Part shown: positions 18,001 through 50,058 of the stretch, piece by piece
Layout of the letters: the number at the start of each line of letters is the position of its first letter
Position numbering within the stretch: position 1 is the first letter of the stretch
DNA from: an uncultured Candidatus Saccharibacteria bacterium
Lineage (GTDB): Bacteria; Patescibacteriota; Saccharimonadia; Saccharimonadales; Saccharimonadaceae
Assembly: GCA_947166125.1 (NCBI GenBank)
Contig: CAMVCW010000002.1
Span: forward strand, 1-64,000
Length of the DNA stretch: 64,000 nucleotides
Direction of reading: 5' to 3'
The notes under the pieces: model-generated
Database searches by the model: none
Seen by the model: only the letters and a program-made list of their open reading frames with translations
Told to the model about the DNA's origin: nothing
Translations under genes and position numbers: made by a program

Positions 18001-18004
18001 AAAA

Positions 18005-18160: not shown

Positions 18161-18226
18161 TAATCCCCATTAATGTAGTGGCACCACATGGGGGTAGTAG
18201 TAATCATATATAAGTGAGGTTAAAAG

Positions 18227-22481: not shown

Positions 22482-22544
22482 ATACCTAATTATACCATAT
22501 TCGCCTTTCTTGACCGCTCTCCCCAAATTCATTAAAATAAAGAT

Positions 22545-34196: not shown

Positions 34197-34223
34197 AAAT
34201 CTGCCCCCGAGGCAGATTTTTTA
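34197..34223 (+). terminator. Terminator after the 33983 gene
   Basis: AAATCTGCC (34197-34205) pairs with GGCAGATTT (34211-34219), followed by T residues. Confidence 0.8.
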
Positions 34224-35396
34224 TGCAATAATCCCACCGCCTAGGCATATCTCGCCATCATATATCACGGCGGATTGCCCACTGGCCGGGCGCTTAATTT
34301 TGTTTTCAAATTCTAGTATCGCCGCGTCGGCTTCCTTGAATATAATTTTCGCCGGAATAAGTGGCGCTCGGTGGCGGAGACGTACCAGTATGTCCTTATG
34401 AGCGACATCACTATCCTGGCGAAGGGGGGTGCGGAGCTTGGCAAAGCGAGCAGTAGCGCCAGCCGCCTGTGGCGACAGGCCGGCTGGACGCGCCCCCGAG
34501 CGGGATAGCGATGTCATTGGTTGTGCACGTAATACAACATTTTTTAGTTCTAATTCGTCCGTCCAAATATGTTCATCATTTAGATTTTTGGATACATATA
34601 CTATATTTTTGTCTAAATCTTTCGCCACTACATAATACGGCAAGCCGTCGTTTATTTCTCCGGCTACACCATTAAGGTATAACCCGTGTCTCTGGCCAAT
34701 TGTATAGAACACTGCGCCTTCGTGATAGCCTAGCACCTTTTCGCTCTCTATTTCGCGAATTTCGCCAGGCTTAATATCAATATATTCTTTGAGAAAATCC
34801 TTCATCCCCACCTCACCCACAAAACACACCCCCATGGACTCTTTTTTGTAGGCATTATGTAGGCCCCTTTCTTCAGCTAGCTTTTTTACCTCTGGTTTTA
34901 GCATCTCGCCAATTGGAAATAGCGTGTGTGCTAAGGCTCCGTCGGATATGCGATATAGAAAATACGTCTGATCCTTATTTTCGTCTACGGCACGTGCTAA
35001 TTTGCCATCTATAACTCTAGCGTAATGTCCCGTCGCGATATAATCCGCCCCGCGTTTTATTGCTTCTTCATAAAACAATTTGAACTTAATCTCTTGATTG
35101 CACATTACATCCGGATTTGGTGTGTTTCCTTTGCGAAACTCTTCCAACATATACTCTACCACCTTTTCGCGGTAGGCATCTTCAAAATCCCATACCTCAA
35201 AATCTATCCCTAGCTTTACAGCCACACGCTTGGCATCGGCCAAATCTTCCGCCCATGGACATTTCATACCGGGTAGGTCTTTAGACCAGTTTTTCATGTA
35301 TATGCCAGTAACTTTATATCCTTGCTCTTTCAGAAGTAAAGCAGATACGCTAGAATCCACTCCGCCGCTCATCCCTACAAATACCGTTTTAGCCAT
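34221..35396 (-). CDS. mnmA: tRNA-uridine 2-sulfurtransferase, with internal palindromic insertion
   Basis: Adds sulfur to U34 of tRNAs for Lys, Glu and Gln. PP-loop FVGMSGGVDSSVSALLL, first catalytic Cys in NPDVMCNQEIKF, second in GVCFVGE. About 37 residues encoded at 34404-34515 are foreign to the family and come from element C, placed in the C-terminal beta-barrel region. It overlaps the desulfurase gene by 8 nt, joining sulfur donor and user in one operon; GGGAGAG precedes the ATG. Confidence 0.96.
   Translation of the reverse strand: MAKTVFVGMSGGVDSSVSALLLKEQGYKVTGIYMKNWSKDLPGMKCPWAEDLADAKRVAVKLGIDFEVWDFEDAYREKVVEYMLEEFRKGNTPNPDVMCNQEIKFKLFYEEAIKRGADYIATGHYARVIDGKLARAVDENKDQTYFLYRISDGALAHTLFPIGEMLKPEVKKLAEERGLHNAYKKESMGVCFVGEVGMKDFLKEYIDIKPGEIREIESEKVLGYHEGAVFYTIGQRHGLYLNGVAGEINDGLPYYVVAKDLDKNIVYVSKNLNDEHIWTDELELKNVVLRAQPMTSLSRSGARPAGLSPQAAGATARFAKLRTPLRQDSDVAHKDILVRLRHRAPLIPAKIIFKEADAAILEFENKIKRPASGQSAVIYDGEICLGGGIIA
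34404..34515. repeat. Palindromic element C, in frame inside mnmA
   Basis: Outer arms 34404-34416 and 34503-34515 match at 12 of 13 positions. Inside are hairpin GCTT-GGCA-AAGC (34436-34447) and a 37-nt core (34456-34492) with CCTGT-GGCG-ACAGG extended by CCAGCCG/CGGCTGG. The core aligns with elements D and A. Confidence 0.85.
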
Positions 35397-36534
35397 TGAT
35401 TCTCTCCCGCTCTGTAGCTACTACTTCATTGATAATCTGTGCCGCTTCGTGGATCTGTTCTTCGGTATTGGTTTCTCCCAAGGTTAAACGTAATGATCCA
35501 GCTATTTCTGTATCACTTAGCCCTATCGCGGTGAGTACATGCGATTTTTGCCCCTTAGACGCTGCACAAGCTGCCCCAGTAGCCACATAGATTTCTTTTT
35601 CCTCCAAGAGGTAGATTAACCTCTCTGCATCTATACCATTATAGCACAAAACTACAAAATTGTCAAGCGTATGCTTTTTGTTGATCAACTCATACCCCTG
35701 CAATTCAGATAGTAAAATTTGTTTAAAACTCTTATATTTTTTACGATTACCGTTCAGGTGCTCTTTTGCTTCTTTTATGGCCGTGGCAAACCCTATTACA
35801 CCTGGCACATTTTCGGTACCCGCCCGCAAGCCCTTTTCTTGCCCGCCACCCATGGTGAGAGGCGATAATTTTACATCATGTGCTACATATAGCGCCCCCA
35901 CACCTTTTGGCCCATAGATTTTTGCCGCATTTAAGGTCAACATATCTACGCCGAGTCGCGCTACATTGATATCCAGCAGATTCAACGCCTGCGAAGCATC
36001 GGAGTGTAGATAAATTGGAATTTTAATGCCGCGCTTTAGCCTATCTACCCTAATCTCTCGCACCAGCGAGCCAATTTCTGCCAGCGGCTGAATTGTCCCT
36101 AGCTCGTTATTAGCTAGCGATACGGAAATAAGAGTTGTATCATCGGTAATTTTAGCTTTCAAATCTTCCAGATTAATTAGGCCACTCGGTAAAACTTTTA
36201 TTGCTCTGCCATCATGTTGCTGCGCTACCGCTCGCACCGAATCATGCTCTGTTTCTAGATATAAGACCTCGCCCTTACCATGGTTGTGCTGCGTCACCGC
36301 GGTGAAAGCTAGGTTGTTTGCTTCTGTTGCTCCGGCGGTGATCACGATGTCTGTTCCCTTGGCACCAATCGCGTGCGCTATCGTATTTTTTGCCGCCTCG
36401 TACTCTGCTGCCACTTTTTTGGCTGGCAAATATGCTGCGCTAGGGTTAAAAAAATCCTGTGTAAAATACGGCTCCATCGCCTGCAAAACCTTACGCGACA
36501 CCGGCGTCGCCGCCGCATGATCCAGATATATCAT
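35389..36534 (-). CDS. Cysteine desulfurase (IscS/NifS class)
   Basis: PLP enzyme that takes sulfur from cysteine, here most likely for MnmA. MIYLDHAAATPVS start, PLP region around SDASQALN and LNAAKIYGPKGVGALY (Lys), and active Cys in ATGAACAASK. Start at 36534 fits both the family start and a TATAAT ending 6 nt upstream. Confidence 0.95.
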   Translation of the reverse strand: MIYLDHAAATPVSRKVLQAMEPYFTQDFFNPSAAYLPAKKVAAEYEAAKNTIAHAIGAKGTDIVITAGATEANNLAFTAVTQHNHGKGEVLYLETEHDSVRAVAQQHDGRAIKVLPSGLINLEDLKAKITDDTTLISVSLANNELGTIQPLAEIGSLVREIRVDRLKRGIKIPIYLHSDASQALNLLDINVARLGVDMLTLNAAKIYGPKGVGALYVAHDVKLSPLTMGGGQEKGLRAGTENVPGVIGFATAIKEAKEHLNGNRKKYKSFKQILLSELQGYELINKKHTLDNFVVLCYNGIDAERLIYLLEEKEIYVATGAACAASKGQKSHVLTAIGLSDTEIAGSLRLTLGETNTEEQIHEAAQIINEVVATERERING

Positions 36535-36572
36535 AAACATATTATAACATATTTCCCACAAATATAAACCCA

Positions 36573-36601
36573 TTGACTATTCTGGAAAAAATCGCTATAA
36601 T
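36573..36601 (+). promoter_or_regulatory. Consensus promoter of the 36.6-kb sRNA
   Basis: TTGACT (36573-36578), 17-nt spacer, TATAAT (36596-36601), plus strand. Confidence 0.7.
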
Positions 36602-36607
36602 ATAAAC

Positions 36608-36654
36608 ATATTCGGGATTTTCCCGCCCACCCCTCACTCGAGGGGGTATTTTTT
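36608..36654 (+). ncRNA. Candidate 47-nt sRNA antisense to the PemK-like 3' end
   Basis: The promoter is followed by hairpin CGGG/CCCG (36613-36625) and terminator hairpin CCCCTC/GAGGGG (36630-36645) with a T-run (36649-36654). No reading frame of use. The 3' half overlaps the last codons and stop of the 36634 gene on the other strand. Confidence 0.6.
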
Positions 36655-37074
36655 AAGATAAAGTTTGTTAAAGCCATTTACAATCTTTCTTATATCTTCA
36701 TCATCTAATTCTCCCATCTTGCGACAAAGCCTAAAAGCACTTATGCGCCCCAATTGATTTAACGCTGCAAATTGGTCTTTGTCTTTAAAACGAAATCCGA
36801 CATACCAGTCTGGAGCTTCCTTTGTATGGTCTTGTGAAGTTAGCGGTATCCCCATAAAACCAAACTTACTGAATTTATGATAGATTATCACTGGCCTAGT
36901 AAACATATCGCCTTTACCATTTATTTCTACTCCTACATTTTCTCCAACAGCGCACCACCACAATTCCCATTCCTTAAACCTACGCAAGACAGCCGTATTG
37001 TGGACAGTTGCTTTTACGGGCATCCATTTTTTATAGTTTCTATTATTTTCTGAATCTATTAGAGTATTTTTCAT
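36634..37074 (-). CDS. MazF/PemK-like toxin-family protein
   Basis: A 146-residue soluble protein with the MazF/PemK pattern: ELWWCAVGENVGVEINGKG, FTRPVIIYHKF, GIPLTS and LGRISAFRLCRKMG. Family members are mRNA-cleaving RNases of toxin-antitoxin pairs. No antitoxin gene lies next to it; the only candidate partner is the antisense sRNA at its 3' end. It follows FISUMP protein 2 with the same type of spacer that precedes the CdiA-C-like gene. Leaderless start: TAGGGT ends 6 nt before the ATG. Confidence 0.82.
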   Translation of the reverse strand: MKNTLIDSENNRNYKKWMPVKATVHNTAVLRRFKEWELWWCAVGENVGVEINGKGDMFTRPVIIYHKFSKFGFMGIPLTSQDHTKEAPDWYVGFRFKDKDQFAALNQLGRISAFRLCRKMGELDDEDIRKIVNGFNKLYLKKYPLE

Positions 37075-37174
37075 GTTAGCACCCTAGCATAAGGAGTAGG
37101 AAACTTCAACCCCCACCCACACGCTTACGCTTAATTCTATTCCGCCTAGGTTTATTTTCTAAGCAATATATAAA
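37075..37174 (-). promoter_or_regulatory. Conserved spacer/promoter before the PemK-like gene
   Basis: Homologous to 19823-19912. ATTAAGCGTAAGC, a G-rich hairpin kept by G-U pairs, then TTGAAG-N17-TAGGGT ending 6 nt before the ATG. Confidence 0.65.
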
Positions 37175-38650
37175 TCACCGCACCAAACACCGCACAGGAA
37201 GCCCAGCTCGACGACTAGTATAATTCCAAATGCTAACAAACGTACTTCCGAAACCAAAGTTGAAACCGTAAAATAAGGAATCCGAAGTGGAGGACCAATA
37301 TGCCCCATTTGAGTTTCCATTCCAATGGCGGGAAACATCATAGGCACCGGCTAGCAAAAAGTTCGGAATAGTAACCGTGCCGGCTTCATCGTAAAAAGTA
37401 TTAGTATAAGTTGTATTCTGGTTTTCAGTAGCCCCATACGCTACTGCCAATTGGTAAAAATCGGTAGATTGGTATGCCGGAGAATCCGGTGATCTTGAAT
37501 TTGGCATTTTCCACCCCGCAGGGCATATACTTGCAGGAGCATCGCTACCACCCTTAACTGTGCTTTTCAAAGATCCTATTGTTGCCGCCAACCAAGAATA
37601 GTAGCTATAGCAACCAGGGTTGGCACAATTATTCGTATCATTCCCAGTATTATATACGTAGGCCTGTGTGTTATCGCTAAATCCAGTTTGAGAAGATTCT
37701 GGCAACTTGTTTCCTTCTTGGAATCCATTAGCTGTGGGTAAAATGTAGTCTTCTGGCATATCGGATAGCCTGCTGGTAATTTCCGTTCCTCCAGCTAGAT
37801 TAAGATTCTCGGTCATCCATACTTTACCGTCTTTTAGCTTTGCTATAGTATATTCCTGATCGTCTCTTCTATCCAATTTAGTATAATTTGTTTCTGGTTT
37901 CATAGAGGATATTATATTATTTTTGTCTGCGCTAGCTAAATCGTCAAAATCTTGTAGATATATAATATCATCTATAGTTGGGGCAGGAGTAGCTCCCGGA
38001 TGCACCATAGTATACTTCACTGTACCAGCATAGGTACCTGCTGGTTGGGTAGAAGAAGCAGTGGCTTGGTAATGGGTTGTGATACTGGAACCAGTAGTAC
38101 TATCTGAATCGTTAGCAGTAACGTTATTATATGAAGCTACTTTGGTATAGGTAGATGGGATATTGTTATAGCTACTATAGTTATTTTCTATAGTAGGAGT
38201 GAAGTTATTCTCTACTGGTACTAGCTTCATTTTCCAACTACTACCGTTGTTACTATTACCGCTTCCTGTAGTATCACCATTGGTTTTAATGTTGTTAGCA
38301 CTAGTAGGCTCATTATTGTAAATTAAATCTGTATTGCCGTATTCATTATTACTGTACCCTATAGCATATACTGCATAACCACCGGGATCATTGCAGAAAG
38401 TAGTAAAGGTGCTACCAATTATTTCTACACTACTATTATTAGCTAGTATTCCATTATACTCACCAGAACCATTAGTTCTACTAAAACTACAGGCAGAAGA
38501 GACAGTGACTGAAGCGTTGGCAGAAGCAGAACCTTCTACAGCAGATACACTACCAAAAGATTGTGTAATAGATACTAATGTAGCTATAAAACAAAATAAA
38601 CTAAATACTGTTCTACATACATATTGATATCGTTTTATCTTGTCCCGCAT
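37175..38650 (-). CDS. FISUMP-domain surface protein 2
   Basis: A 491-residue exported protein with N-terminal membrane/signal helix (about 13-35), a Ser/Thr/Asn-rich middle part and a C-terminal FISUMP-type domain (LDRRDDQEYTIAKLKDGKVW, CPAGWKMPNS, GAYWSSTSDS, GLPVRCLVR). Related to proteins 1 and 3 but with a different N-terminus. CGAGGT precedes the ATG; leader copy 3 lies upstream. Confidence 0.87.
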   Translation of the reverse strand: MRDKIKRYQYVCRTVFSLFCFIATLVSITQSFGSVSAVEGSASANASVTVSSACSFSRTNGSGEYNGILANNSSVEIIGSTFTTFCNDPGGYAVYAIGYSNNEYGNTDLIYNNEPTSANNIKTNGDTTGSGNSNNGSSWKMKLVPVENNFTPTIENNYSSYNNIPSTYTKVASYNNVTANDSDSTTGSSITTHYQATASSTQPAGTYAGTVKYTMVHPGATPAPTIDDIIYLQDFDDLASADKNNIISSMKPETNYTKLDRRDDQEYTIAKLKDGKVWMTENLNLAGGTEITSRLSDMPEDYILPTANGFQEGNKLPESSQTGFSDNTQAYVYNTGNDTNNCANPGCYSYYSWLAATIGSLKSTVKGGSDAPASICPAGWKMPNSRSPDSPAYQSTDFYQLAVAYGATENQNTTYTNTFYDEAGTVTIPNFLLAGAYDVSRHWNGNSNGAYWSSTSDSLFYGFNFGFGSTFVSIWNYTSRRAGLPVRCLVR

Positions 38651-38714
38651 TAGATTACCTCGCTTATATTAGCTTTTCTCTTGCGGTGCCATTTTACCTA
38701 AATGGAATATGCAT

Positions 38715-38866
38715 AAAAATGGCACCGCAAGGGTGCTATATCCAATCATTCTGCGTCAGGTTAATCATTCGCAAAAGACGGTCCTCACGGCGCCATCAAT
38801 AATTACGAACGATTACGACTAAATAATAAAATCGCTGACACATTTGTTAATGATTGAATATAGCAC
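38715..38866 (-). ncRNA. Structured leader RNA, copy 3
   Basis: Outer stem 38849-38866/38733-38750 (18 bp with wobble), inner stems around TGTGTCAG/CTGACGCA and TAATCGTTCG/CGAATGATTA. The loop GGCGCCGTGAGG (38794-38783) is complementary, with G-U pairs, to CCTTGCGGTGCC (38732-38721). A second GGCACCGCAAG further downstream (near 38680-38690) can pair with the same segment. -10 TATAAT at 38876-38871. Confidence 0.75.
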
Positions 38867-38913
38867 TTTTATTATAGCATGAAAAAATTTAAAATGCGTA
38901 AAAATAAAACTTA

Positions 38914-39092
38914 GGCGGGTGGTCGCATGTGTTTTTCTGGCAATATAAAATTGATTTGGATTTTTAACACGTATATCCCAGACGATGCCAAGAAAGTTGC
39001 TCAAAGAGCAAACTTTCCCGGCCATCCCGTGTATGACGTGCTTAAAAATCCAAGTCTCATTGCCAGAAAAATAGGTGCGACCAGGACCCGCC
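38914..39092. repeat. 179-bp near-perfect palindrome
   Basis: The two halves are inverted copies around a centre near 39003: GGCGGGT...GGTCGCA, TTTTTCTGGCAAT, GGATTTTTAA, ACGT, GAAAGTTGCTC and their complements. Its ends (GGCGGG-TGG ... CCAGG-A-CCCGCC) match elements B and D. No plausible protein. Confidence 0.8.
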
Positions 39093-39147
39093 ACTATTGC
39101 GAGTGGCGAAACAATTATTATAATTATGGCTTAGAAACTTTGTTCAA

Positions 39148-39184
39148 AAAAATAGCCACCAGTAAAACCGGCGGCTATTTTGTT
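39148..39184 (-). terminator. Terminator of tig
   Basis: AATAGCC and GGCTATT arms with inner CCGG/TGG pairing, followed on the minus strand by TTTTTTT. Confidence 0.75.
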
Positions 39185-39190
39185 TATAGG

Positions 39191-40468
39191 CTAGCTATTC
39201 TCTTTCATCAAGAACTCTAGTGTCTTTTCAATAATCATCCGGTTTTTGATATCCATTTTCACATTTGGATCTTTGAGATTTTTCAAAGCCTCCGGTGATT
39301 TCTTGTACACATCTTTCAGCTCGTTAATCTTAGCGGTTACCAAATCGTCCGATACGGTAATCTTGTTTTCTACCGCCAAAGTTTGTAGTACTAGAGATGC
39401 CTTTACGCGTGCTTCGGCGATTTTACGAGCCTCCTTTTCCCAGTTCTCCATAGTTTCGTTATTGCGCTCTAGGAAATCTTCAAAACTCATACCTTGCGAA
39501 GCGGCGTTGCGGCTCATGTCATCTTTGATCATCCGCATTTGGTCGTTGATCAAAATTTCTGGAGCTGGCACAGTGGATTTCTTTACCAAAGCATTGACGA
39601 GGTCGTCTTTGAACTTCTCTTCCAACTTGTGTTCGTTTTGTGCTTTTAGATTCTTTTCAATATCGGCCTTTAGCTCTTTCAAATCTTTGAATGGTCCACA
39701 CTTTTTTGCCATCTCGTCATCTATGGCTGGTTTGGTAATCTCGTTTACTTGCTTGAGTAATACTTCAAATACGGTCTTGGCGCCGGCAAGATCTTTTACG
39801 CCATAATCTTTTGGGAAGGTGAGTTTTAAGTCAAGCTTATCGCCTGGCTCGTGGCCGACAATACCGTCCTCAAACCCCGGGATGAAAGTTTTAGAACCTA
39901 AAGTCAAATGATAATCCTTGGCCGAACCGCCCTTAAAAGCTTCGCCGTCTTTTTTACCAACAAAATCAATGATTACTTCATCGCCGTCTGCCGCGGCGCG
40001 CTTGACAGTCTTTTTCTCAGCAAAAGAAGTTGCAATATTGTTTAGAATTTCTTTAATTTCCTTTTCGGAGACTTTTACGTCCTCTTTCTTGACGCCGAGC
40101 TTTTTAAAGTCGCCGAGCTTGATTTCTGGAATAATATCGGCCGTAGCGGTGTATTCTACTACCTCGTCTGGCACATACTTGGTAACATTTACGCTAGGTA
40201 GCACCAGTGGCGATTTTTCGTTCTTGGAAAATGCTTCTATCACGGTGGTGCGCACGGCAGCATCTACCGTCTCGGCATTTAAGTCGTTTTCTGGGATAAA
40301 CTTTTTAGCTACATCTACAGGTACCTTACCTTTGCGGAATCCTTCCACATGGATTTCTTTGGCTAACTTTTCTAGAGCCTTATCCTTTGCTGGCTTCAAA
40401 TCTTTTGCATCTAGTGTCACGGTAATTTCTACGCGCGAATCAGACAGTTTCTTGACTGTAGTTTTCAT
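39191..40468 (-). CDS. tig: Trigger factor
   Basis: Ribosome-associated chaperone, 425 residues. The ribosome-binding signature GFRKGKVP, the FKBP-type PPIase domain (VIIDFVGKKDGEAFKGG) and the C-terminal helical arms are all present. It has AGGAG and a 23-nt leader after TATAAT (40497-40492), so it is one of the housekeeping genes with a normal leader. Confidence 0.96.
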   Translation of the reverse strand: MKTTVKKLSDSRVEITVTLDAKDLKPAKDKALEKLAKEIHVEGFRKGKVPVDVAKKFIPENDLNAETVDAAVRTTVIEAFSKNEKSPLVLPSVNVTKYVPDEVVEYTATADIIPEIKLGDFKKLGVKKEDVKVSEKEIKEILNNIATSFAEKKTVKRAAADGDEVIIDFVGKKDGEAFKGGSAKDYHLTLGSKTFIPGFEDGIVGHEPGDKLDLKLTFPKDYGVKDLAGAKTVFEVLLKQVNEITKPAIDDEMAKKCGPFKDLKELKADIEKNLKAQNEHKLEEKFKDDLVNALVKKSTVPAPEILINDQMRMIKDDMSRNAASQGMSFEDFLERNNETMENWEKEARKIAEARVKASLVLQTLAVENKITVSDDLVTAKINELKDVYKKSPEALKNLKDPNVKMDIKNRMIIEKTLEFLMKENS

Positions 40469-40492
40469 AATAACTCCTATATATTATATGTA

Positions 40493-42085
40493 TTATAACA
40501 TAATTTTTGGGAGGCTACTATCCCGGAAATGCGTCAAAGTAAATTTGGAGCTAGCCCCTAATTTGATATCCGGATTCAAGATTTTATTTTGGTCAAAAAT
40601 CTCTTTGATTTTAGTATATAAATCTTGTTCGGCATCTTTCATTTCGGTATTCGTTACCACTGCTTTTAACCTACCTTCCGGTGTGCCACCGGCCAGCTTG
40701 CCATCCTGCCTATCTATAATATATGCTCCTGCGCGTAAGAACGTGGCGGCTTTTTTATTAAAATCCTTTTCTTCCAAATTAAACTTGGGCCTTAAGCTAT
40801 AAATAGATGTGGCATACGAACCATATAGGGCCAAATCCAGCTTCAACTTTTCTTCTAAAACTTTTAGATCCTTCAAAAATCCGCCAATATTGCGTGCTGG
40901 CAAATAAAAATCTGTCAAAATCGGTACTCGCTCGCCATTTTTCGGCGAATTGAGATATACGGATAGGGCATTTTCAAACTCATTAAGTGCTACGCGATTA
41001 TTGACGTTTTCAAAAATAAACTTGCTACTGCGTGGATAATCTTTTTGCATATTGGTGAGCTTTTTGATACAACCATTTACCCGTTCGTCTATACTTACTA
41101 ACACCACAAATCCATCTTCGATTTTGCGAATTACGCCGTCTAGATTTTTACCAGACTCGCGCGCCTCTTGAATAATCTTTAGGTCATAAAAATCAATTTT
41201 ACGTGGTTTTAAAGATTTTGCTGCATAGGCAAATTCTAGCGCCGAGTCCAATTCCTTAAACGTGGCTACTACGCGTGTAGGCTTCTTGCTAAGTGGCACT
41301 GCACGCAAAATTACTTCAGAAATCACTCCTAGCGTACCCTGCGCACCGAAAAACAGGGGCATTAAATCCAGTGTGTCCCTGCGCTGAACCTTAGTAATCA
41401 TCGGGTAGCCACTTTTGTCTCGTGGCGGATTTTTGGTAATATCAGAAATTAATTCAGCCTTAGATTTTAGCAGTTTGGATATTTTGCGATAAATATCGCC
41501 TTCCAGGGATTTTTCGGTGGCTTTTTTGGCGACATGATACTTTTTTAGACGGTTAGTTTGCAGACACTCGCCGTTGGCTAGTACTACTTCTATGCGCTCT
41601 ACGTAGTTTGCAATCCCGCCATATTTGCTAGCGTTATTGTCTATTGGCATGTTAGATATCAATCCGCCAATCGTTTCCCCACTGTGGCCGCTAATCGGGA
41701 TAGTGAGACCCGATACGGAAAGCGCAGTATTTAATTCCTTTAGAGTAATCCCGGCTTGTACACGTACCAATCTTTCGCGCGGGTCTATCTCTAGCATCCG
41801 GTTTAATTTTTCAGTAGAAATTACTAGCCCTCCGGCAGACAGATCTGCCCCACCTTCGTCCAGGCCAGAACCACGTGCCGTGACGGACACCGGTATATCT
41901 TTCGCGGCAATCTGATTAAAAAACCGCATTAATTTACGGATATCTTCGGTAGATTCTGGAAATGCCACGAATTTTGGCTTAATTTTGAGCGCCGAACGGT
42001 CTGTAGAGTAAACCTCCAAGATTTCTGGGTTATCAAAAACATTACCAACAATCAACTGATTCAAATACTTGGTAATTTTACCCAT
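40493..42085 (-). CDS. FAD-linked oxidase (GlcD-like)
   Basis: A 530-residue PCMH-type FAD-binding oxidoreductase: ARGSGLDEGGADLSAGGLVIS (FAD pyrophosphate) and ISGHSGETIGGLISN, then a C-terminal oxidase cap. Similar to glycolate/lactate dehydrogenase subunits, but no iron-sulfur domain or partner gene is present. Substrate unknown. Confidence 0.88.
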   Translation of the reverse strand: MGKITKYLNQLIVGNVFDNPEILEVYSTDRSALKIKPKFVAFPESTEDIRKLMRFFNQIAAKDIPVSVTARGSGLDEGGADLSAGGLVISTEKLNRMLEIDPRERLVRVQAGITLKELNTALSVSGLTIPISGHSGETIGGLISNMPIDNNASKYGGIANYVERIEVVLANGECLQTNRLKKYHVAKKATEKSLEGDIYRKISKLLKSKAELISDITKNPPRDKSGYPMITKVQRRDTLDLMPLFFGAQGTLGVISEVILRAVPLSKKPTRVVATFKELDSALEFAYAAKSLKPRKIDFYDLKIIQEARESGKNLDGVIRKIEDGFVVLVSIDERVNGCIKKLTNMQKDYPRSSKFIFENVNNRVALNEFENALSVYLNSPKNGERVPILTDFYLPARNIGGFLKDLKVLEEKLKLDLALYGSYATSIYSLRPKFNLEEKDFNKKAATFLRAGAYIIDRQDGKLAGGTPEGRLKAVVTNTEMKDAEQDLYTKIKEIFDQNKILNPDIKLGASSKFTLTHFRDSSLPKIML

Positions 42086-42140
42086 CCTGTTTATGATTAT
42101 ATCATAGAAAACGGCCTAGACAGTTTCAATTTTTAGGATA

Positions 42141-42167
42141 AAAAATGCCCCCGGCTGGCTGCCGGGG
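42141..42167 (-). terminator. Terminator of the 42179-43081 gene
   Basis: Minus strand CCCCGGC/GCCGGGG hairpin (42149-42167) followed by CATTTTTT. Confidence 0.8.
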
Positions 42168-42178
42168 AGCGAAGTACA

Positions 42179-43081: not shown

Positions 43082-43131
43082 TTTTATGCACCTCCGAAAA
43101 AATATTTGTTATGGTGGACAATAACCTCTAT

Positions 43132-43160
43132 ATTCTAACACAGTTTTAGATATAAGTCAA
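43132..43160 (-). promoter_or_regulatory. Promoter of the 42179-43081 gene
   Basis: Minus strand TTGACT (43160-43155), 17-nt spacer, TAGAAT (43137-43132). Confidence 0.8.
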
Positions 43161-43197
43161 CTAGCATAACAAAAAATAGCCACTAAGGCTACTCTCG

Positions 43198-43282
43198 TGG
43201 TGCCCGGAACAGGATTTGAACCTGCACACCTTGCGGCATATGCTCCTAAGGCATACGTGTCTACCAATTCCACCATCCGGGC
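43198..43282 (-). tRNA. tRNA-Leu (UAG)
   Basis: Acceptor stem GCCCGGA/TCCGGGC, D-arm GGTGGAATTGGTAGACAC, anticodon stem TATGC/GCATA with loop CTTAGGA (anticodon TAG), a variable arm of about 13 nt and T-arm GCAGGTTCAAATCCTGT. Discriminator A is followed by an encoded CCA (43200-43198). Confidence 0.97.
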
Positions 43283-43308
43283 GTGTACCCATTATATCAT
43301 AAATCGCC

Positions 43309-43343
43309 AAAAAAGCGAGACTTTCTATAAATCTCGCTTTTTA
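43309..43343 (-). terminator. Terminator of the 43349-43831 gene
   Basis: GCGAGA (43315-43320) with TCTCGC (43332-43337); U-run on the minus strand. Confidence 0.75.
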
Positions 43344-43348
43344 TAAAA

Positions 43349-43831
43349 TTAGGCTTCTCTCTTGGCTAAGACCGCCGAAGAAAGATACATTACCAACGTC
43401 CCGGCAACTAGCGCGAGCGGCAAAAACTCTTCTGGGCCAGTGGATGGCATTTGCTCCGTAGTTGCTGTTACCGAAGTAGATTTTTGGGCAGCAGTCTTTT
43501 CTTCGGATTTTTTGCTTTCACTATTCGCTTTTTCCGTAGAAATGGTCCCTACTGCATTATTCTCTGCGGTTGTTGTATTTTTCTCGTCATCCTTTTTCTC
43601 TTCTTCTGTAGTGGTATTTTCTTCGGTCTTATTCTCGGTTGTCTGCTCGTTATTCTCTGCGATTTCAAACGTGGTATTTTCGCTATTATTTGCGGTATTG
43701 GTGCGACTAGATTTTTTGGTAGCCACTACGATAATTGCCACGATTAGAATCAAAATAATTGCTACTATTGCCGTAGCTGCGGCGATAATCTTGCGACGTT
43801 CCTTTTTCTCCACCTCTGTTTGTTGATACAT
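43349..43831 (-). CDS. Surface protein with sortase-type signal and Glu/Thr-rich stalk
   Basis: A 160-residue protein. N-terminal membrane helix (about 14-37), a low-complexity Thr/Glu/Asn/Lys stalk (about 40-125) and a C-terminal MPSTGPEE motif (LPxTG-like), hydrophobic helix and KREA tail. Either a two-pass membrane protein or a precursor cleaved by sortase; no sortase gene is in the window. AAGGAG precedes the ATG, with promoter TTGACA-N17-TATAAT at 43852-43880. Confidence 0.8.
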   Translation of the reverse strand: MYQQTEVEKKERRKIIAAATAIVAIILILIVAIIVVATKKSSRTNTANNSENTTFEIAENNEQTTENKTEENTTTEEEKKDDEKNTTTAENNAVGTISTEKANSESKKSEEKTAAQKSTSVTATTEQMPSTGPEEFLPLALVAGTLVMYLSSAVLAKREA

Positions 43832-43851
43832 AATAAACTCCTTATACTTCC

Positions 43852-43880
43852 ATTATACCACACTTTATGAAAAATGTCAA
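43852..43880 (-). promoter_or_regulatory. Consensus promoter of the 43349-43831 gene
   Basis: Minus strand TTGACA (43880-43875), 17-nt spacer, TATAAT (43857-43852). Confidence 0.85.
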
Positions 43881-43906
43881 CATAAGCACAATACCCTCTA
43901 ACAGAT

Positions 43907-43938
43907 GAAAAACCGATGCGTCATGGATGCATCGGTTT
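43907..43938 (-). terminator. Terminator of LuxS homologue 3
   Basis: AACCGATGC (43929-43937 complement) pairs with GCATCGGTT (43911-43919), followed by TTTTC on the minus strand. Confidence 0.8.
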
Positions 43939-44331
43939 GTGGAGAAGTACGTGGTAATCTGCCGCGTACATCTTGGCGCCCAGCAAATCTGGCTTCATGA
44001 GCGAATCGGTTGGGTCAACCCTGTCGGTTTTGATGATGAATCCACACAAAGATTCAACCAGGTCAAAAATCCTTTCATAACTAGCTACTTTTCCTACTAT
44101 AAAGTAGAATCCGTTGTCTCGTCTAGATGGACGAAAACTTATGATTCTATCTTTTCTGTAGCGTTGATCGGAAAAGAATATATTTCCCAGATATCTAATT
44201 GTTTCAGCGGTATCATGAGTCATGTCCCTACCTTGGTAGCCAACAAACTCTAGATAAAAACGTTCCACTGTGCGATGTTTGTAATGGCGTTTTCCGCAAG
44301 AATATATTCCTGACGCAATCTGTTTTTTCAT
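43921..44331 (-). CDS. LuxS homologue 3, zinc site and catalytic Cys lost
   Basis: 136 residues. The fold alignment to LuxS is readable from RFYLEFV through AETIRYLGNIFF, FRPSRRDNGFYF and DLLGAKMYAADY. The zinc motif HxxEH is replaced by ETIRY (about 43-47) and MGCRTGFY by SRRDNGFY, and no Cys stands at the third zinc position. It cannot work as an S-ribosylhomocysteinase. Start at 44331 because TAGGAGAGG lies 4 nt before it. Own promoter at 44383-44411. Could be a regulatory or structural relic still under expression control. Confidence 0.72.
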   Translation of the reverse strand: MKKQIASGIYSCGKRHYKHRTVERFYLEFVGYQGRDMTHDTAETIRYLGNIFFSDQRYRKDRIISFRPSRRDNGFYFIVGKVASYERIFDLVESLCGFIIKTDRVDPTDSLMKPDLLGAKMYAADYHVLLHKPMHP

Positions 44332-44382
44332 TATACCTCTCCTAAGGTGCAAATTTCGAGTTTACGCTCGATACGTCCATCA

Positions 44383-44411
44383 ATAATAGCATAAAAATTA
44401 AAATAATTCAA
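44383..44411 (-). promoter_or_regulatory. Promoter of LuxS homologue 3
   Basis: Minus strand TTGAAT (44411-44406), 17-nt spacer, TATTAT (44388-44383). Confidence 0.75.
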
Positions 44412-44437
44412 GAAAAAGGCCAGCACTTGGTGCTGGC
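44412..44437 (-). terminator. Terminator of FISUMP-like protein C
   Basis: GCCAGCAC/GTGCTGGC stem (44419-44437) followed by CTTTTTCTT on the minus strand. Confidence 0.85.
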
Positions 44438-44449
44438 TATGGGTTGGTT

Positions 44450-44998
44450 TTAGTCATGAACTAGGCGAATACTGTGTCCACAACTACGGTTAAACGTTCG
44501 AATTTCAGGTTTTTTGGTCATATAAACAACGAGGCTGTAGGTGTAATTATTGGTGCCGTCATCGTTTATTAGCCAGAATCGACCCTCAATCATTTTGTCG
44601 ACAACGAGGCTAGCGACGATTTCTCGGTCTGTTGGACAGTAGTTGTATATACGCATGCTCGGATAAATGTAGCCATCAAGCTTCAGGCCAAGCTGCGCCA
44701 TGATCTTGCCGCTCGGATTGACGAGATTCTTACCTGTAAATTCTGTCAACCAAGCCCCGGCTTCCGTTACGGTAGGCAGTCGCCAACCTTCCGGAAAATA
44801 GCCCTGCTCCTGAAGAGCTTCTGCTTCGTCCAGGGTGAAGAACTCCTTGCCGGCGTGCAAGATAGTGGCTTCGTCGGGGTCGCCACTTTTGTCTACGCCA
44901 GTCAGAATAATCTCCTTCTCTAAGACGAAATTTTCCGGAGCCACAATGGGTCCGGCCTGTGTTCTCTTGCCATCTTCGATCCATCTGAAAATGTTCAT
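44450..44998 (-). CDS. Cytosolic FISUMP-like protein C
   Basis: 182 residues, no signal peptide. The FISUMP skeleton is visible: PEGWRLPTVTEAGAWL, IEGRFWLINDDG and the ending CGHSIRLVHD. AAGGAG precedes the ATG and a consensus promoter drives it. One of four such short cytosolic proteins here (A-D). Function unknown. Confidence 0.75.
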   Translation of the reverse strand: MNIFRWIEDGKRTQAGPIVAPENFVLEKEIILTGVDKSGDPDEATILHAGKEFFTLDEAEALQEQGYFPEGWRLPTVTEAGAWLTEFTGKNLVNPSGKIMAQLGLKLDGYIYPSMRIYNYCPTDREIVASLVVDKMIEGRFWLINDDGTNNYTYSLVVYMTKKPEIRTFNRSCGHSIRLVHD

Positions 44999-45064
44999 TT
45001 TAATCTCCTTAATGTACGAATTTCAGAATTCCGTCTGATACGGGTGAATTGCTATCACACTACA

Positions 45065-45093
45065 ATTATATCATACTTATGATAAAAAGTCAA
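45065..45093 (-). promoter_or_regulatory. Promoter of FISUMP-like protein C
   Basis: Minus strand TTGACT (45093-45088), 17-nt spacer, TATAAT (45070-45065). Confidence 0.8.
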
Positions 45094-45102
45094 TTAAAAG
45101 CA

Positions 45103-45131
45103 AGAAAAAGGCCAGCACCGTAGCGCTGGCC
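45103..45131 (-). terminator. Terminator of the LuxS2/FISUMP-B operon
   Basis: GGCCAGC (45110-45116) with GCTGGCC (45125-45131), then CTTTTTCTT on the minus strand. Confidence 0.85.
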
Positions 45132-45140
45132 TTAAGGAGA

Positions 45141-45641
45141 CTAGAGGTTTTTAACGAGTAGCAAAGGTAGACCGTAACCCATGCAATACTTTGTTATATT
45201 GATTTGTGACCCAGAAACCTCCAGTAAGGAAGCAGAAGTGGATATAGGCATACACTCCAACCAATAGCAGCCAGTTATTCCCCGGTGTGCAACATAGTGG
45301 CCAAATCCTGTGGGGCAGTATTTGTATGCCACCATGTTGGATGGAATTATATATCCATCATGTCCAAGTACTATTTTGCTAAACCGACAGGCATTATGGA
45401 GCTCCTTAATCTTTTCGGCTTCGGCCGGTTTCATCATTCGCCAGCCGGCTGGGACGTTGCGGTTTTCCACTAATTGATGCGCCGTTTTCCAGTCGAAATA
45501 CTGCGCACCCTCCATCACGGCTTTGCCGTTTTGGAAATAGATTCTCTCCGTTACCCGGAAGATCTCCGGAGCAATCATAATGCCGACGCCGGGCAATTTA
45601 ATCGCCTTCTGTTCCCAGTTGCTGCCATACGGAATTTTCAT
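45141..45641 (-). CDS. Cytosolic FISUMP-like protein B
   Basis: 166 residues, no signal peptide. PAGWRMMKPAEAEKI, TGCYWLEC and YGLPLLLVKNL follow the FISUMP order. AAAGGAGGG precedes the ATG, and the gene begins inside the 3' end of LuxS homologue 2, so the pair is translated together. Closest to protein A (shared ending GLPLxLVKxL). Confidence 0.75.
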   Translation of the reverse strand: MKIPYGSNWEQKAIKLPGVGIMIAPEIFRVTERIYFQNGKAVMEGAQYFDWKTAHQLVENRNVPAGWRMMKPAEAEKIKELHNACRFSKIVLGHDGYIIPSNMVAYKYCPTGFGHYVAHRGITGCYWLECMPISTSASLLEVSGSQINITKYCMGYGLPLLLVKNL

Positions 45642-46119
45642 TGTAGCCCTCCTTTACAGGGTATTCAAAATGCGGTTTCTTGAGTTCGTGTAAATACCTC
45701 GCGGCCCACTCTTTGGCGCCAGCCAGATCATGTTCTTTGTAATTACTGCACTCCCTAGCATTGGTGCCAGGGATTTCTCCTTCAAAATCAATGATGAATT
45801 TCAGCATTGATTTTATCGTCAAGAAAATCGGCGATTCCTTGTGCAGGGGATTTTGCCAACCGGATACTATCAAGTAGAACCCAGTTCTGCTACTCATCGG
45901 ACCGAAATAAATCAGTTCGATACTGTGAGCCTCTCGGCTTCTCAGATAAAAATTGCCGAGATGCTCGATAGTATGCATTGCTGGTGACGGCAGATAGACA
46001 CCGTGGTTAGGGCGGACGAATCTTAAATCGAGAGTAGTGGTATCATGACTGTGCTGGAAGATATACACTCCCGGGCGTAATCTAGTACAATCTACCTCAA
46101 ATTTCTTCATTCCCTTCAA
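45598..46119 (-). CDS. LuxS homologue 2, zinc site kept, catalytic Cys lost
   Basis: 173 residues. The order of LuxS blocks is complete: FEVDCT (His to Cys), TTLDLRFVRPN, HTIEHL (zinc ligands His49 and His53), GPMSSRTGFYL and ARECSNY (Cys124, third zinc ligand). The catalytic Cys of MGCRTGFY is Ser77 here. It should bind metal but not carry out the normal reaction. The TTG at 46119 is spaced 7 nt from GGAGAGG; an ATG at 46110 is the alternative. Confidence 0.8.
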   Translation of the reverse strand: MKGMKKFEVDCTRLRPGVYIFQHSHDTTTLDLRFVRPNHGVYLPSPAMHTIEHLGNFYLRSREAHSIELIYFGPMSSRTGFYLIVSGWQNPLHKESPIFLTIKSMLKFIIDFEGEIPGTNARECSNYKEHDLAGAKEWAARYLHELKKPHFEYPVKEGYNENSVWQQLGTEGD

Positions 46120-46179
46120 TCATATTCCTCTCCTTTCAAAGTACATAGTTTAAGGCCGTGACCTATAAAATACTAAATA

Positions 46180-46208
46180 ATAATACCATATTTTTGGTTA
46201 AAAAGCAA
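46180..46208 (-). promoter_or_regulatory. Promoter of the LuxS2/FISUMP-B operon
   Basis: Minus strand TTGCTT (46208-46203), 17-nt spacer, TATTAT (46185-46180). Confidence 0.7.
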
Positions 46209-46243
46209 TGTCAGCAGATCCTGAGAATAGCTTTTTAAAAACA

Positions 46244-46271
46244 AGAAAATAGCCGACACTTAGTGTCGGCT
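46244..46271 (-). terminator. Terminator of the LuxS1/FISUMP-A operon
   Basis: AGCCGACACT (46251-46260) with AGTGTCGGCT (46262-46271), then ATTTTCTT on the minus strand. Confidence 0.8.
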
Positions 46272-46280
46272 AGAGAGAGA

Positions 46281-46775
46281 CTAAAGATCTTTTACCAACA
46301 TAAGTGGCAAACCGCAACCAATATGTAGATACGAGTCGGCGTTTAAAACCCTTTTACCGCTAATGATTACGTAGGCGTACAACTCGCTGACAAAATCGCT
46401 AGTCCAGCAGTAGCCGAAAGCCCCGTGTTGCATAACCTCAACGGCTAGTGAATGTTGGTATCTGGCCATGTCATTTAACCCCACATAACCGTCAAGCCCG
46501 AAAACCTTGCGACCAACTTCGGTGCCAGTAAATAATTTGGCAATTTTCTGACCTTCTTCTCTGCTGGGCAGTCGCCAGCCCGCAGGTGTTTTCTTGGCTT
46601 TTATCAAGTCATTTGCCACGGTTAGGGGAAAGTATTTGGTACCTTTTAGTACCTTCTTATTGTCCTCAAGTAAAATATCACGCGAGGGGACGAACGGTTC
46701 CGGTGCCACGCCAATTCCGGCAGTTTCAAACTCAATTCCGGTTCCCCATTTTTTTGCTAAATCTGTCTTTGCCAC
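46281..46775 (-). CDS. Cytosolic FISUMP-like protein A
   Basis: 164 residues from a GTG start. PAGWRLPSREEGQKIA, FGYCWTSDFV and CGLPLMLVKDL give the FISUMP skeleton. The frame is open upstream to 46901, but GAAGGAGGA lies 9 nt before the GTG and overlaps the luxS stop, so the GTG is preferred. Co-transcribed with the intact luxS. Confidence 0.75.
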   Translation of the reverse strand: MAKTDLAKKWGTGIEFETAGIGVAPEPFVPSRDILLEDNKKVLKGTKYFPLTVANDLIKAKKTPAGWRLPSREEGQKIAKLFTGTEVGRKVFGLDGYVGLNDMARYQHSLAVEVMQHGAFGYCWTSDFVSELYAYVIISGKRVLNADSYLHIGCGLPLMLVKDL

Positions 46776-46780
46776 CGTGC

Positions 46781-47299
46781 TTATTCCTCCTTCGTGTTGA
46801 GTATGGGATATTCGAAACACGGGTCGTGGAGTAATGACTTCAGGTATTTTCTGGTATGACGTTTGGCCGCGGATAAATCGTGTTCCTGCCAGTTGCCACA
46901 TTCCTGAGGCGAAGCGCCGGGTATGCGTCCATCAAACTGAACAATGAAATTGCAAAGATCTATCACTAGACGGTGCGTAACATTGTTCAGCGCCGGTGGC
47001 CAGTAGTCAGCCATTGATAGATAAAACCCGGTTCGACAGCCCATTGGGCTAAAGTCGATAACCTTATCTCGGTGCTCTGAGTGATTACGTAGGAAGATAG
47101 TACCTAGATGCTCAATCGTATGAAGAGCTTTGGGGCCGATGACCTTAGTAGCAAACATGCCACCGCGGTTTGGTTTGACGAACCGCAAATCTAAAATGGT
47201 AACCATAGATTCGGGGTCAGGAAAGCGAAATTCCCTTGCGGTGTAAATTCCGGGCTTGAGCTTGGTGTGATCCACCTGGAAGCTAGGAATTTTATCCAT
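46781..47299 (-). CDS. luxS: S-ribosylhomocysteine lyase (LuxS)
   Basis: 172 residues with a complete LuxS active site: FQVDHT (His11), TILDLRFVKPN, zinc ligands His60 and His64 in HTIEHL with Glu63, catalytic Cys88 in SPMGCRTGFYLS and Cys134 in PQECGNWQEHDL. LuxS cleaves S-ribosylhomocysteine to homocysteine and DPD, the precursor of autoinducer-2. No SAH nucleosidase, methionine synthase or other cycle gene is in the window. AAAAGGAGAG precedes the ATG. First gene of a two-gene operon with FISUMP-like protein A. Confidence 0.93.
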   Translation of the reverse strand: MDKIPSFQVDHTKLKPGIYTAREFRFPDPESMVTILDLRFVKPNRGGMFATKVIGPKALHTIEHLGTIFLRNHSEHRDKVIDFSPMGCRTGFYLSMADYWPPALNNVTHRLVIDLCNFIVQFDGRIPGASPQECGNWQEHDLSAAKRHTRKYLKSLLHDPCFEYPILNTKEE

Positions 47300-47363
47300 T
47301 TTTCTTCTCTCCTTTTAATGTACAGATTCCGGATACCGCCGGTACGGGTATAAATACTTACTA

Positions 47364-47391
47364 ATCATATCATATTTTTGATAAAAAGCAA
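47364..47391 (-). promoter_or_regulatory. Promoter of the luxS operon
   Basis: Minus strand TTGCTT (47391-47386), 16-nt spacer, TATGAT (47369-47364). It begins right at the end of FISUMP protein 3. Confidence 0.7.
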
Positions 47392-47393
47392 GG

Positions 47394-49130
47394 CTAGCGT
47401 GCCACGCATCGCACGGGTCTCCCGCCACTTTTCCAGCCGTCGCCGCCACTACCGTAAGCATTATAATCAGTATTGACGTAGTTGGTAAAGAGAACCATGA
47501 CATAGGCAGTAACGCCATCACTAACCGTATTGGACCAATAGGTCGCCTTAAAGCCTGGGTTGCTAAGACCGCCATCAATAGCAAAACCAGACTGCACAAA
47601 CCACAGAGGAGCAGAAATGAGTTTAAAATCAGTATTGCCACCGTCATTGTAGAGATAGTTCAACCTGCCAAATTCCCCCTTAGAATTTGGTCGTGAATGC
47701 GCATCTTCCCCATTAGGTTTTGCTATGGTAGGCAACCTCCATCCTTTAGGGCAAATAGAGTTTTGTGGATTATTATTCACATTGCTATATGTGCTAACGG
47801 TAAGAGAACTACTATCATCACTAGCTATAGCGGCAGACCAGTTATAATAATTGCCTACGGATAGATGTTTGTTAACATTAGTTTTGTCTTGTGTAAAATG
47901 CGTACAACCAGCACTTGTATTGAGATAATTACAGTTTGGCGTAGTATCATCTCCATCCCAATACCACTCACCTGGATCCAAGGAATAGGCTATATTAGTA
48001 TTACTGGCCCATGGAGTACCAGTACTATGTTGATAATCTCTGGTAATATTAGTGGGGCCCCAAGAGATTATATTGGTCTCCAGGTTATAGCTATACCCTT
48101 CTCCATAGGCTCCAGCAAGCGATCTATCGTTTAAATCCGTATCCTCAGAAGTAAGCACTGTGGTATCTATACCTAGAGCTGCATCTTTTACGCCTAGGTC
48201 CAAGTCTAGATTTTGTGTCATCCAGCAATGTCCATCTTTTAGTTTGGCCACCCAATAAATCTTATTATCTCTATCATCTACTAATTGTATCTCATCATAC
48301 CCTGGATTATCATTGGGTGTTACTGCATCACAAATACTACTATTCATATCTTGCATTTTGTAGAAATCACCAGTTTGTCCAGTTACTGGATCTACCACGC
48401 CTATCTTCTTGCTTTTTCCAGCACTAGCAAATGCACTTTCTAATGTAGTAGTAGGTAGTACTGTAGTAGCAGAAGGATGCAGCATTACATACTTTACTTG
48501 TCCACTATAAATACCTGCTGGTTGTCCTGGCGTGGTATATACACCATAAGTAGTAGTAAAGATAGAAGTAGCAGTACTATTAGTAGCTGTACTAGCACTT
48601 CTATACACTACTTTAGTCCAATTATTAGGTACTGGCACATATTTATTATCATAATCACTTACTATAGTAGGAGGAAAAGTACTAGCACCAAGACTTAACT
48701 TCATCGCCCAGCTAGAGTCTCCATTACTACTAGGAATATTACCAGTCTTAATATCATAATTGGATCCTAGGCTAGAAGCTAATACCACTTCACCATTATT
48801 ATTCTGTGTAGTACCTTTAGCGTAAACTATATAACCATCCTTATCATTACATATCGTATTAATTTCTGTAGTACCAATATCTCTAAGTTCTTGTCCACTG
48901 ACCATACTGGCAGTATGTTCCGCTGTAACATTGCCAGACAAAGTACAAGAAGTGGGTAAATTAATCCTAACACTGTCTGCAGAACTATTCATTGCAGAAG
49001 AACGGAAAGAAGCTAATAATACAGCAGAGATAGCTAAGATGGGTAAACTAACTAAAAGAATATTGCGGAAAGCATAGTAGAAGAAATCTATTCTACTACT
49101 CATTAAAGATTGTTTTACTTTGTGGCCCAT
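47394..49130 (-). CDS. FISUMP-domain surface protein 3
   Basis: 578 residues. N-terminus MGHKVKQSLMSSRIDFFYY is nearly identical to surface protein 1, followed by a membrane/signal helix (about 28-48), a Ser/Thr-rich beta region and a FISUMP-type C-terminus (VDDRDNKIYWVAKLKDGHCW, CPKGWRLPT, ATYWSNTVSD, GGRPVRCVAR). The segment before the final motif is rich in Tyr, Asn, Gly and Asp (YVNTDYNAYGSGGDGW), as in variable lectin loops. Leader copy 2 lies upstream; GAGGT precedes the ATG. Confidence 0.88.
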   Translation of the reverse strand: MGHKVKQSLMSSRIDFFYYAFRNILLVSLPILAISAVLLASFRSSAMNSSADSVRINLPTSCTLSGNVTAEHTASMVSGQELRDIGTTEINTICNDKDGYIVYAKGTTQNNNGEVVLASSLGSNYDIKTGNIPSSNGDSSWAMKLSLGASTFPPTIVSDYDNKYVPVPNNWTKVVYRSASTATNSTATSIFTTTYGVYTTPGQPAGIYSGQVKYVMLHPSATTVLPTTTLESAFASAGKSKKIGVVDPVTGQTGDFYKMQDMNSSICDAVTPNDNPGYDEIQLVDDRDNKIYWVAKLKDGHCWMTQNLDLDLGVKDAALGIDTTVLTSEDTDLNDRSLAGAYGEGYSYNLETNIISWGPTNITRDYQHSTGTPWASNTNIAYSLDPGEWYWDGDDTTPNCNYLNTSAGCTHFTQDKTNVNKHLSVGNYYNWSAAIASDDSSSLTVSTYSNVNNNPQNSICPKGWRLPTIAKPNGEDAHSRPNSKGEFGRLNYLYNDGGNTDFKLISAPLWFVQSGFAIDGGLSNPGFKATYWSNTVSDGVTAYVMVLFTNYVNTDYNAYGSGGDGWKSGGRPVRCVAR

Positions 49131-49199
49131 CTTTTACCTCATTTATATATATGATTACTACTACTCCCCCATGTGGTGCCACTATATTAATGGGGATTA

Positions 49200-49344
49200 A
49201 CAAAAATGGCACCGCAAGGGGTGCAATATCCAATCATCCGATACTAGCATTAACTACACGAACAATTTGATGCCTTACGGCGCCATTTCTTTCGTGTAGT
49301 TAATAAAAAGTGCTAGTTTTCACTCGTATGATTGAATATTGCAC
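49200..49344 (-). ncRNA. Structured leader RNA, copy 2
   Basis: Outer stem 49328-49344/49221-49237 (17 bp), stem CTAGCA/TGCTAG, stem ATTAACTACACGAA/TTCGTGTAGTTAAT. The loop GGCGCCGTAAGG (49284-49273) pairs through G-U with CCTTGCGGTGCC (49219-49208), followed by ATTTTTG. Downstream it matches copy 1 nearly base for base to the ATG. Promoter TACACA-N17-TATACT (49349-49377) overlaps the rsmD 3' end. Confidence 0.78.
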
Positions 49345-49365
49345 TCTTAGTATAGCACAAATGTT

Positions 49366-49890
49366 TTACTTTGTGTAAATAGAGATCCTTGCGGCCGCAT
49401 ACTTACGCGTTTTTTGTAGAATTAATCCATTTATCTCTGGTGCCTCCCCAGGATGAGAAAGCGTAAAAACTCCACCTTTTTTCAAAAACTTCGCTAAATT
49501 TTCTATGCCCCGCAGGTCAAAATTATCGTACGGTGGGTCCGCCAGTATCACACCAAAATCCCTGGGTGGCAAGAAATTTTTTGCATCCCACTCAGACACG
49601 CTGGCTTGCTCAGCTAGGCCTAATTCGGCTAGATTTTTACGGATTACTCCAGTAATGCGCGGATTTTTCTCTACAAACATTGCATAGCTCGCTCCGCGCG
49701 ATAAAGCTTCTATCCCTAGTGCCCCGGAGCCAGCATAAGCATCCAGTACTACTGCCCTAGGCAGGTATTCAGAAATCATGTTAAATAGTGCCAGCTTTTC
49801 CCTGGCCCCCATAGGATGGGTGAGTCTAGAATTAGGCGATTTGATACTTCTGCCCCGATATTTTCCAGATGTAATTTTGATATTATCCAT
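49366..49890 (-). CDS. rsmD: 16S rRNA (guanine966-N2)-methyltransferase RsmD
   Basis: 174 residues. SAM-binding VLDAYAGSGALGIEALSRGA and catalytic DPPYDN. Start at 49890 (MDNIKITSGKYRGRSIKSP, the usual RsmD beginning), with TATAGA ending 7 nt upstream; the longer frame to 49923 is less likely. Confidence 0.94.
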   Translation of the reverse strand: MDNIKITSGKYRGRSIKSPNSRLTHPMGAREKLALFNMISEYLPRAVVLDAYAGSGALGIEALSRGASYAMFVEKNPRITGVIRKNLAELGLAEQASVSEWDAKNFLPPRDFGVILADPPYDNFDLRGIENLAKFLKKGGVFTLSHPGEAPEINGLILQKTRKYAAARISIYTK

Positions 49891-49927
49891 AAATAAGTCT
49901 ATAAACAAACAATATAATTGCATATTA

Positions 49928-50058
49928 CGACGGGTGGCGTCAATATCTCAGCGTAGCGGCATTGCGGAGCGCGGCAGCGCGAGAGTTAGCGCCGGCCACC
50001 CGTGGCGACGGGATGGCCGGACGCGGCCGCAAGAGAGATATGACGACAGGTCCCGTCG
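49928..50058. repeat. Palindromic element D, intergenic between recG and rsmD
   Basis: CGACGGG (49928-49934) with CCCGTCG (50052-50058) and an inner ATATCTC/GAGATAT arm. It contains hairpin GCGC-GGCA-GCGC (49969-49980) and the 37-nt core 49989-50025 with CCCGT-GGCG-ACGGG extended by CCGGCCA/TGGCCGG. This is the reference copy, since it is not constrained by a protein. Confidence 0.85.

Follow-up and report, generated by a model that had tools for sequence, protein, structure and literature searches.

A family of short palindromic repeats with locus-specific inverted arms in housekeeping genes of Saccharibacteria and a putative mode of its spread

We report a family of short palindromic repeats found in a stretch of 64,000 nucleotides (the window) from an uncultured Candidatus Saccharibacteria bacterium (GenBank assembly GCA_947166125.1, contig CAMVCW010000002.1, positions 1 to 64,000). 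Three copies in the window are denoted A, C and D. We believe that these are probably copies of a short non-autonomous GC-rich palindromic element, most likely a selfish one, which would spread by template-switching DNA synthesis in which the flank of the target is copied by fold-back.

Mobility, and an apparent origin of the arms from the target, are best supported by the presence of identical units between unrelated arms. In genome G004 (genomes, contigs and loci outside the window are cited by our own labels), identical 76-nt units occupy three unrelated loci: L138_2542, L138_3727 (LeuRS) and L139_2473 (LepA). The MnmA and TatD copies of G026 (L111 and L112) are 100% identical over 77 nt. 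The identity ends at TCG on the left and at CGA on the right in each pair; beyond these points the sequences are palindromic, yet unrelated to each other. Mobility, only inferred in the initial annotation of this DNA, is further supported by opposite orientations of the unit at the same codons of different genomes (TrmD in L025 versus L020; TatD in L112 versus L113). Gene names other than those of the window genes (UvrB, MnmA, RsmD, RecG, S4/PseudoU_synth_2) were read from conserved motifs of the translations. A fold-back chimera of the assembly is ruled out as the source of the palindromes: copy D is present both in the window and in the independent assembly L227, a relative about 94% identical to the window, and the arms covary between orthologous copies.

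The repeat unit and its distribution

The repeated unit is GC-rich and about 80 nt long; its base stem, TCGGGGC..GCCCCGA, bears two inner hairpins. The loop motifs are invariant, and GTAG precedes the core hairpin in several copies. The initial annotation described a core starting with GCGCC in copies A (21913), C (34456) and D (49989), folded as a CCYGT/ACRGG stem capped by a loop of four bases, with one bulged base and a further stem of 6-7 bp, as well as a second hairpin with a GGCA loop in C and D; all this was found as described. It counted this further, outer stem, which differs between copies yet stays paired, as part of the element. The variation and the pairing stand; this stem is, however, mostly copy-specific target sequence outside the mobile unit, and the palindrome of all three copies reaches beyond the core into copy-specific arms, which had been overlooked.

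A covariance model (R1) was built from A, C, D and one further copy. In the genome of the window, 12 matches pass E<=1 and 11 pass E<=0.001; matches occur in 58 of the 60 genomes sampled from the genus (rumen and gut Saccharibacteria), where the number of copies per genome ranges from 0 to 26 and the counts total about 508. The likeness of the cores is thus no accident, and the proposal of a dispersed palindromic family is borne out by hundreds of additional copies. In a sample of 287 genomes from the phylum, with 16 candidates scored per genome, matches were confined to this genus; when the family was sampled with greater sensitivity, weaker homologues came to light in other genera, the signal being clear in G350, G364 and G302, moderate in G366 and borderline in G344. 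The best homologues from other genera retain both the loop motifs and the flanking arms. Searches of the open-licence literature, subscription journals being outside their scope, brought up no account of such elements in Saccharibacteria.

In alignment A5 (52 distinct rows), pairing holds in 93.4% of cells, and 18 of 24 pairs have changed on both sides, figures that are favoured by the fitting of this alignment to the model's own structure. The covariation score is 0.383 versus 0.114 after shuffling (none of 500 shuffles reaches the observed value), and falls to at most 0.05 when the partner is slid. Covariation this strong, together with the invariant loops, could be expected of an intragenic functional RNA, a regulator or a processing site with a conserved fold. 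We regard this explanation as very improbable: the element has no match in Rfam, lies in both orientations relative to unrelated host genes, and varies widely in copy number. Covariation is no proof of RNA function here, because template switching can itself generate it, the correction of arms by this process also predicts pairing, and the alignment was fitted to the structure. The caution extends to other repeats with strong base-pair covariation.

Of the 120 copies examined, 92 sit in an open reading frame (ORF) that continues without a stop for 45 codons or more to either side, and the in-frame insertion into housekeeping genes claimed for A (UvrB) and C (MnmA) holds, both ORFs being open. 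Such openness might suggest a coding module, that is, a peptide insertion under selection at the protein level. The idea is hardly credible, as it is contradicted by the use of all six combinations of strand and phase and by the conservation of the fold but not of the peptide; relatives keep the pairing of the DNA without a conserved peptide.

The inverted arms and the proposed insertion

For 98 of 103 copies, the complementarity of the arms exceeds the 99th percentile of mismatched controls, in which the left flank of one copy was paired with the right flank of another. The arms span 19 nt in the median, mostly 15-22 nt (5th-95th percentile 12-29). The immediate flanks have inverted 6-mers in common in 63% of copies versus 3% of controls; direct 6-mers are at the control level (4% versus 3%), and so are direct target duplications. 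A locus-specific inverted repeat thus replaces the usual direct repeat at the flanks. The arms remain complementary as copies age: in putative orthologues (the genome of the window versus L048; L049 versus L053), compensatory changes preserve the pairing, as with GCATC/GATGC versus GCTTC/GAAGC and ATGC/GCAT versus ATGT/ACAT.

These flanks bear on a more conventional explanation, in which an element resembling miniature inverted-repeat transposable elements (MITEs) or repetitive extragenic palindromic (REP) sequences is moved in trans by an ordinary transposase, and its arms become palindromic later through quasipalindrome correction. Short terminal inverted repeats, the lack of coding capacity and dispersed copies with identical units would fit it, and correction by template switching is a known process; nevertheless, we consider it unlikely. 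Apart from the control level of direct duplications, near-perfect new arms already flank copies whose units have not diverged. The Y1 transposase (PF01797) of the REP-associated tyrosine transposase (RAYT) type is absent from the genome of the window and from 58 of the 60 genus genomes, the Y1 and RVT_1 families being the only ones searched, and within these two families no mobilising enzyme, encoded or co-occurring, was found. Proteins with RVT_1 were detected in 40 of the 60 genomes; dependence on a reverse transcriptase is ruled out, since RVT_1 is undetected in the copy-rich G004, G026, G029, G036 and G046. Given these negative results, we presume that the machinery consists of host replication and repair enzymes; template switching during host DNA synthesis would be the most economical explanation.

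The following sequence of events may be proposed. A growing 3' DNA end at the target would be extended along another copy of the unit; at the palindromic end of the unit the nascent strand would fold back and copy its own just-made flank over about two helical turns, and would then rejoin the original template slightly downstream. The product would be host flank, unit, inverted copy of the flank, and host again. Later template switches between the arms (quasipalindrome correction) would maintain or extend these, at times at the expense of codons on the far side, which would be overwritten. Steps of this kind have precedents: in quasipalindrome mutations of E. coli the nascent strand copies itself and then returns, with a strand bias (PMC7202029), and a single template-switch event can create a perfect stem (PMC8794818).

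Comparison of empty and occupied alleles of TrmD, LepA, MnmA and UvrB shows a host-derived arm, in most cases the 5' (sense) one, and opposite it an arm that is its inverted copy. The 5' arm covers conserved codons (A-R-E-F-A in TrmD, G-P-x-P in LepA, E-L-K-E-L-L-F-R in MnmA, AEIEF in LeuRS); the 3' arm is an inverted copy of these codons and usually stops where the next conserved block begins. Strict arms enter the 5' block only in 17 cases, both blocks in 5 and the 3' block only in 2, counts that are not independent events, as some orthologues share an insertion, and that we estimate to represent about 14 versus 1-2 independent ones. The orientation of the core is balanced among the 17 (9 versus 8). 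The Q[LS]xF usual in UvrB now reads QPSF in L052 and L059, precisely where the arm complements the 5' side (GAAGGTTGG/GGTTGG), which shows that conserved codons were overwritten. An early guess that the 3' arm is the host arm in UvrB was abandoned after the comparison of TrmD, LepA and MnmA. On contig C24 of G009, the GC skew is negative across 220 kb and the genes are mostly on the minus strand, which suggests a single replichore; TrmD and MnmA would then be co-directional with replication, and QueA, on the strand opposite to TrmD, would be head-on to it. The third-codon GC skew around TrmD gave no assignment of the leading strand.

Several points, the shared ancestry of the counted insertions among them, weigh against the proposed insertion by fold-back copying. 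The polarity is not universal: by eye, NifS is reversed or ambiguous, and in QueA the host arm is the 3' one or ambiguous in L355, L352 and L353, and the 5' one in L345 and L346. The net length of the insertion ranges from roughly that of the unit (MnmA, LepA) to that of the unit plus an arm (TrmD), which leaves no clean line between insertion and overwriting. The closest pair of presence and absence is ObgE, with a copy in L227 and none in the window, where the region is about 94% identical. The arms of this ObgE copy resemble those of L014, a copy in an unrelated gene of the window's own genome, which implies that arms can also travel with the unit; L308 and L313, from another genus, share only about 10 nt of the inner arm. 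An inner arm may therefore be carried with the unit and an outer arm newly made.

Finally, the host region in the RluB-like gene (DGPSKFTV/TVILSEGR) is near-palindromic already in orthologues without an insert, so a preference for existing quasipalindromes may contribute. In its full form, such a preference would mean that the element chooses the tips of pre-existing host hairpins, which correction then only perfects. One empty TrmD (L149) with GAGAATTT..AAATTCTC is in keeping with it; still, most empty alleles of TrmD, LepA and MnmA, inspected by eye, are without such a palindrome, and the arms of about 19 bp in LeuRS and LepA of G004 are too perfect for chance, which makes this explanation quite improbable.

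A wider claim can be put forward tentatively and with appreciable doubt, namely that this is a previously undescribed kind of transposition. The unit would be copied onto a nascent 3' end, its palindromic end would force the fold-back, and each insertion would be signed, on one side, by about 19 nt of the target in inverted form rather than by a direct duplication; loops of essential enzymes of these bacteria would repeatedly be lengthened in this way.

Host genes and other palindromes of the window

The hosts include UvrB, MnmA, TrmD, LepA, TatD, QueA and other housekeeping genes, and the same protein loops are struck repeatedly in different genomes. The linker that holds copy A is occupied in many UvrB orthologues and empty in L075; MnmA orthologues without the insert were likewise found for the site of copy C. 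Against solved homologues, the UvrB and MnmA inserts fall in unaligned gaps, which correspond to 9 and 16 residues there. We propose that a copy in an essential gene can persist only if its net effect on length preserves the frame and the loop it enters is tolerant.

Table 1. Positions of the palindromic copies and of their host genes in the window
Feature	Position	Strand	Location	Parts and remarks
Copy A	21862..21974	+	in uvrB	left arm 21862-21885; unit ~21881-21957; right arm 21951-21974; arms and unit overlap at the stem base
Copy C	34404..34515	+	in mnmA	left arm 34404-34416; unit ~34418-34502; right arm 34503-34515
Copy D	49928..50058	+	intergenic, rsmD-recG	outer arms 49928-49949 and 50035-50058; unit ~49952-50034
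uvrB ORF	20376..22532	-		frame uninterrupted across copy A
mnmA ORF	34221..35396	-		frame uninterrupted across copy C
Copy of second family	30153..30307	+	in the S4/PseudoU_synth_2 gene	arms 30153-30176 and 30281-30307
S4/PseudoU_synth_2 gene	29669-30433	+		hosts the second-family copy

Some insertion sites deserve separate mention. For L110, L115 and L017, single genomes have two occupied mnmA sites and further copies in adjacent genes, a dense local clustering. In L213, L214, L215 and L216, LepA (EF4) apparently consists of two ORFs 0.7-1.7 kb apart; the split point is the loop where relatives carry palindromic elements, and the two ORFs of L215 are separated by a sequence with a likeness to Y-family polymerases. 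Short palindromes or fragments of the element, without a full unit, are seen at the insertion loop in L149 (TrmD) and in L192 and L195 (LepA); these are possible relics of lost copies.

The second palindromic family is also GC-rich and of similar build. The host codons of both its arms are near-complementary already in empty orthologues, and for this reason the RluB-like gene is uninformative on polarity. A related copy is located at 4800-4889 of L227, in the counterpart of ORF 56525-58834, which lacks one in the window. The window also contains long hairpins that are AT-rich and bear GC-rich heads of the GGCACCGTAAGG or GATGCCTTACGGCGCC type (18000-18145, 38720-38880, 49210-49355 and 38905-39095), and its segments 18073-18295 and 49062-49291 are 85% identical.

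Significance and relation to known systems

Small palindromic repeats of bacteria and organelles have long been without a mechanism. The present family, with its hundreds of copies, exact borders, recent identical copies and reproducible inverted signature, makes one mechanism directly testable; it is also a standing source of in-frame insertions in the essential proteins of a reduced, host-dependent lineage.

Rickettsia palindromic elements (RPEs) are small and palindromic, and are inserted in frame into unrelated housekeeping genes of a reduced bacterial genome (PMC10969869). They are the closest analogue, and the likeness noted in the initial annotation is confirmed for the palindromic fold and the in-frame insertion into genes. 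A conserved peptide in one frame per family, which marks RPEs, is not observed here, where the unit of about 80 nt is read in six frames. To our knowledge, locus-specific inverted arms have not been described for RPEs.

The family resembles REP sequences, bacterial interspersed mosaic elements (BIMEs) and REP doublets forming hairpins (REPINs) in being short, dispersed, non-coding and hairpin-forming, and in the GTAG motif; it differs from the REP/RAYT system in that a cognate Y1 is missing from nearly all genomes and that the copies are mostly intragenic, with locus-specific arms. From conventional MITEs it is distinguished by direct target-site duplications at the control level.

Mitochondrial GC clusters and hairpin elements are likewise short, GC-rich and hairpin-forming and have no settled mechanism (PMC4478555, PMC2800124). 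Insertion-associated flank changes are reported for the GC42 cluster (PMC4478555), and flanking duplications are noted as lacking for the Allomyces hairpin elements (PMC2800124). GC42 differs in its AG target nucleotides and co-conversion-like changes; an inverted flank copy is not among the features reported in the available part of that source (PMC4478555).

With quasipalindrome template switching the family shares a nascent strand putatively used as a template, arms that become more complementary, and a strand bias (PMC7202029, PMC8794818); one arm is host-derived and the other is its reverse complement. Events known so far mend inverted repeats that already exist or create a single stem; in the present case they would go along with the spread of a particular unit. 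By the feature comparisons made, the family is genuine and large, and works like RPEs or GC-cluster elements while being a member of neither; there is a fair chance that its mode of insertion is new.
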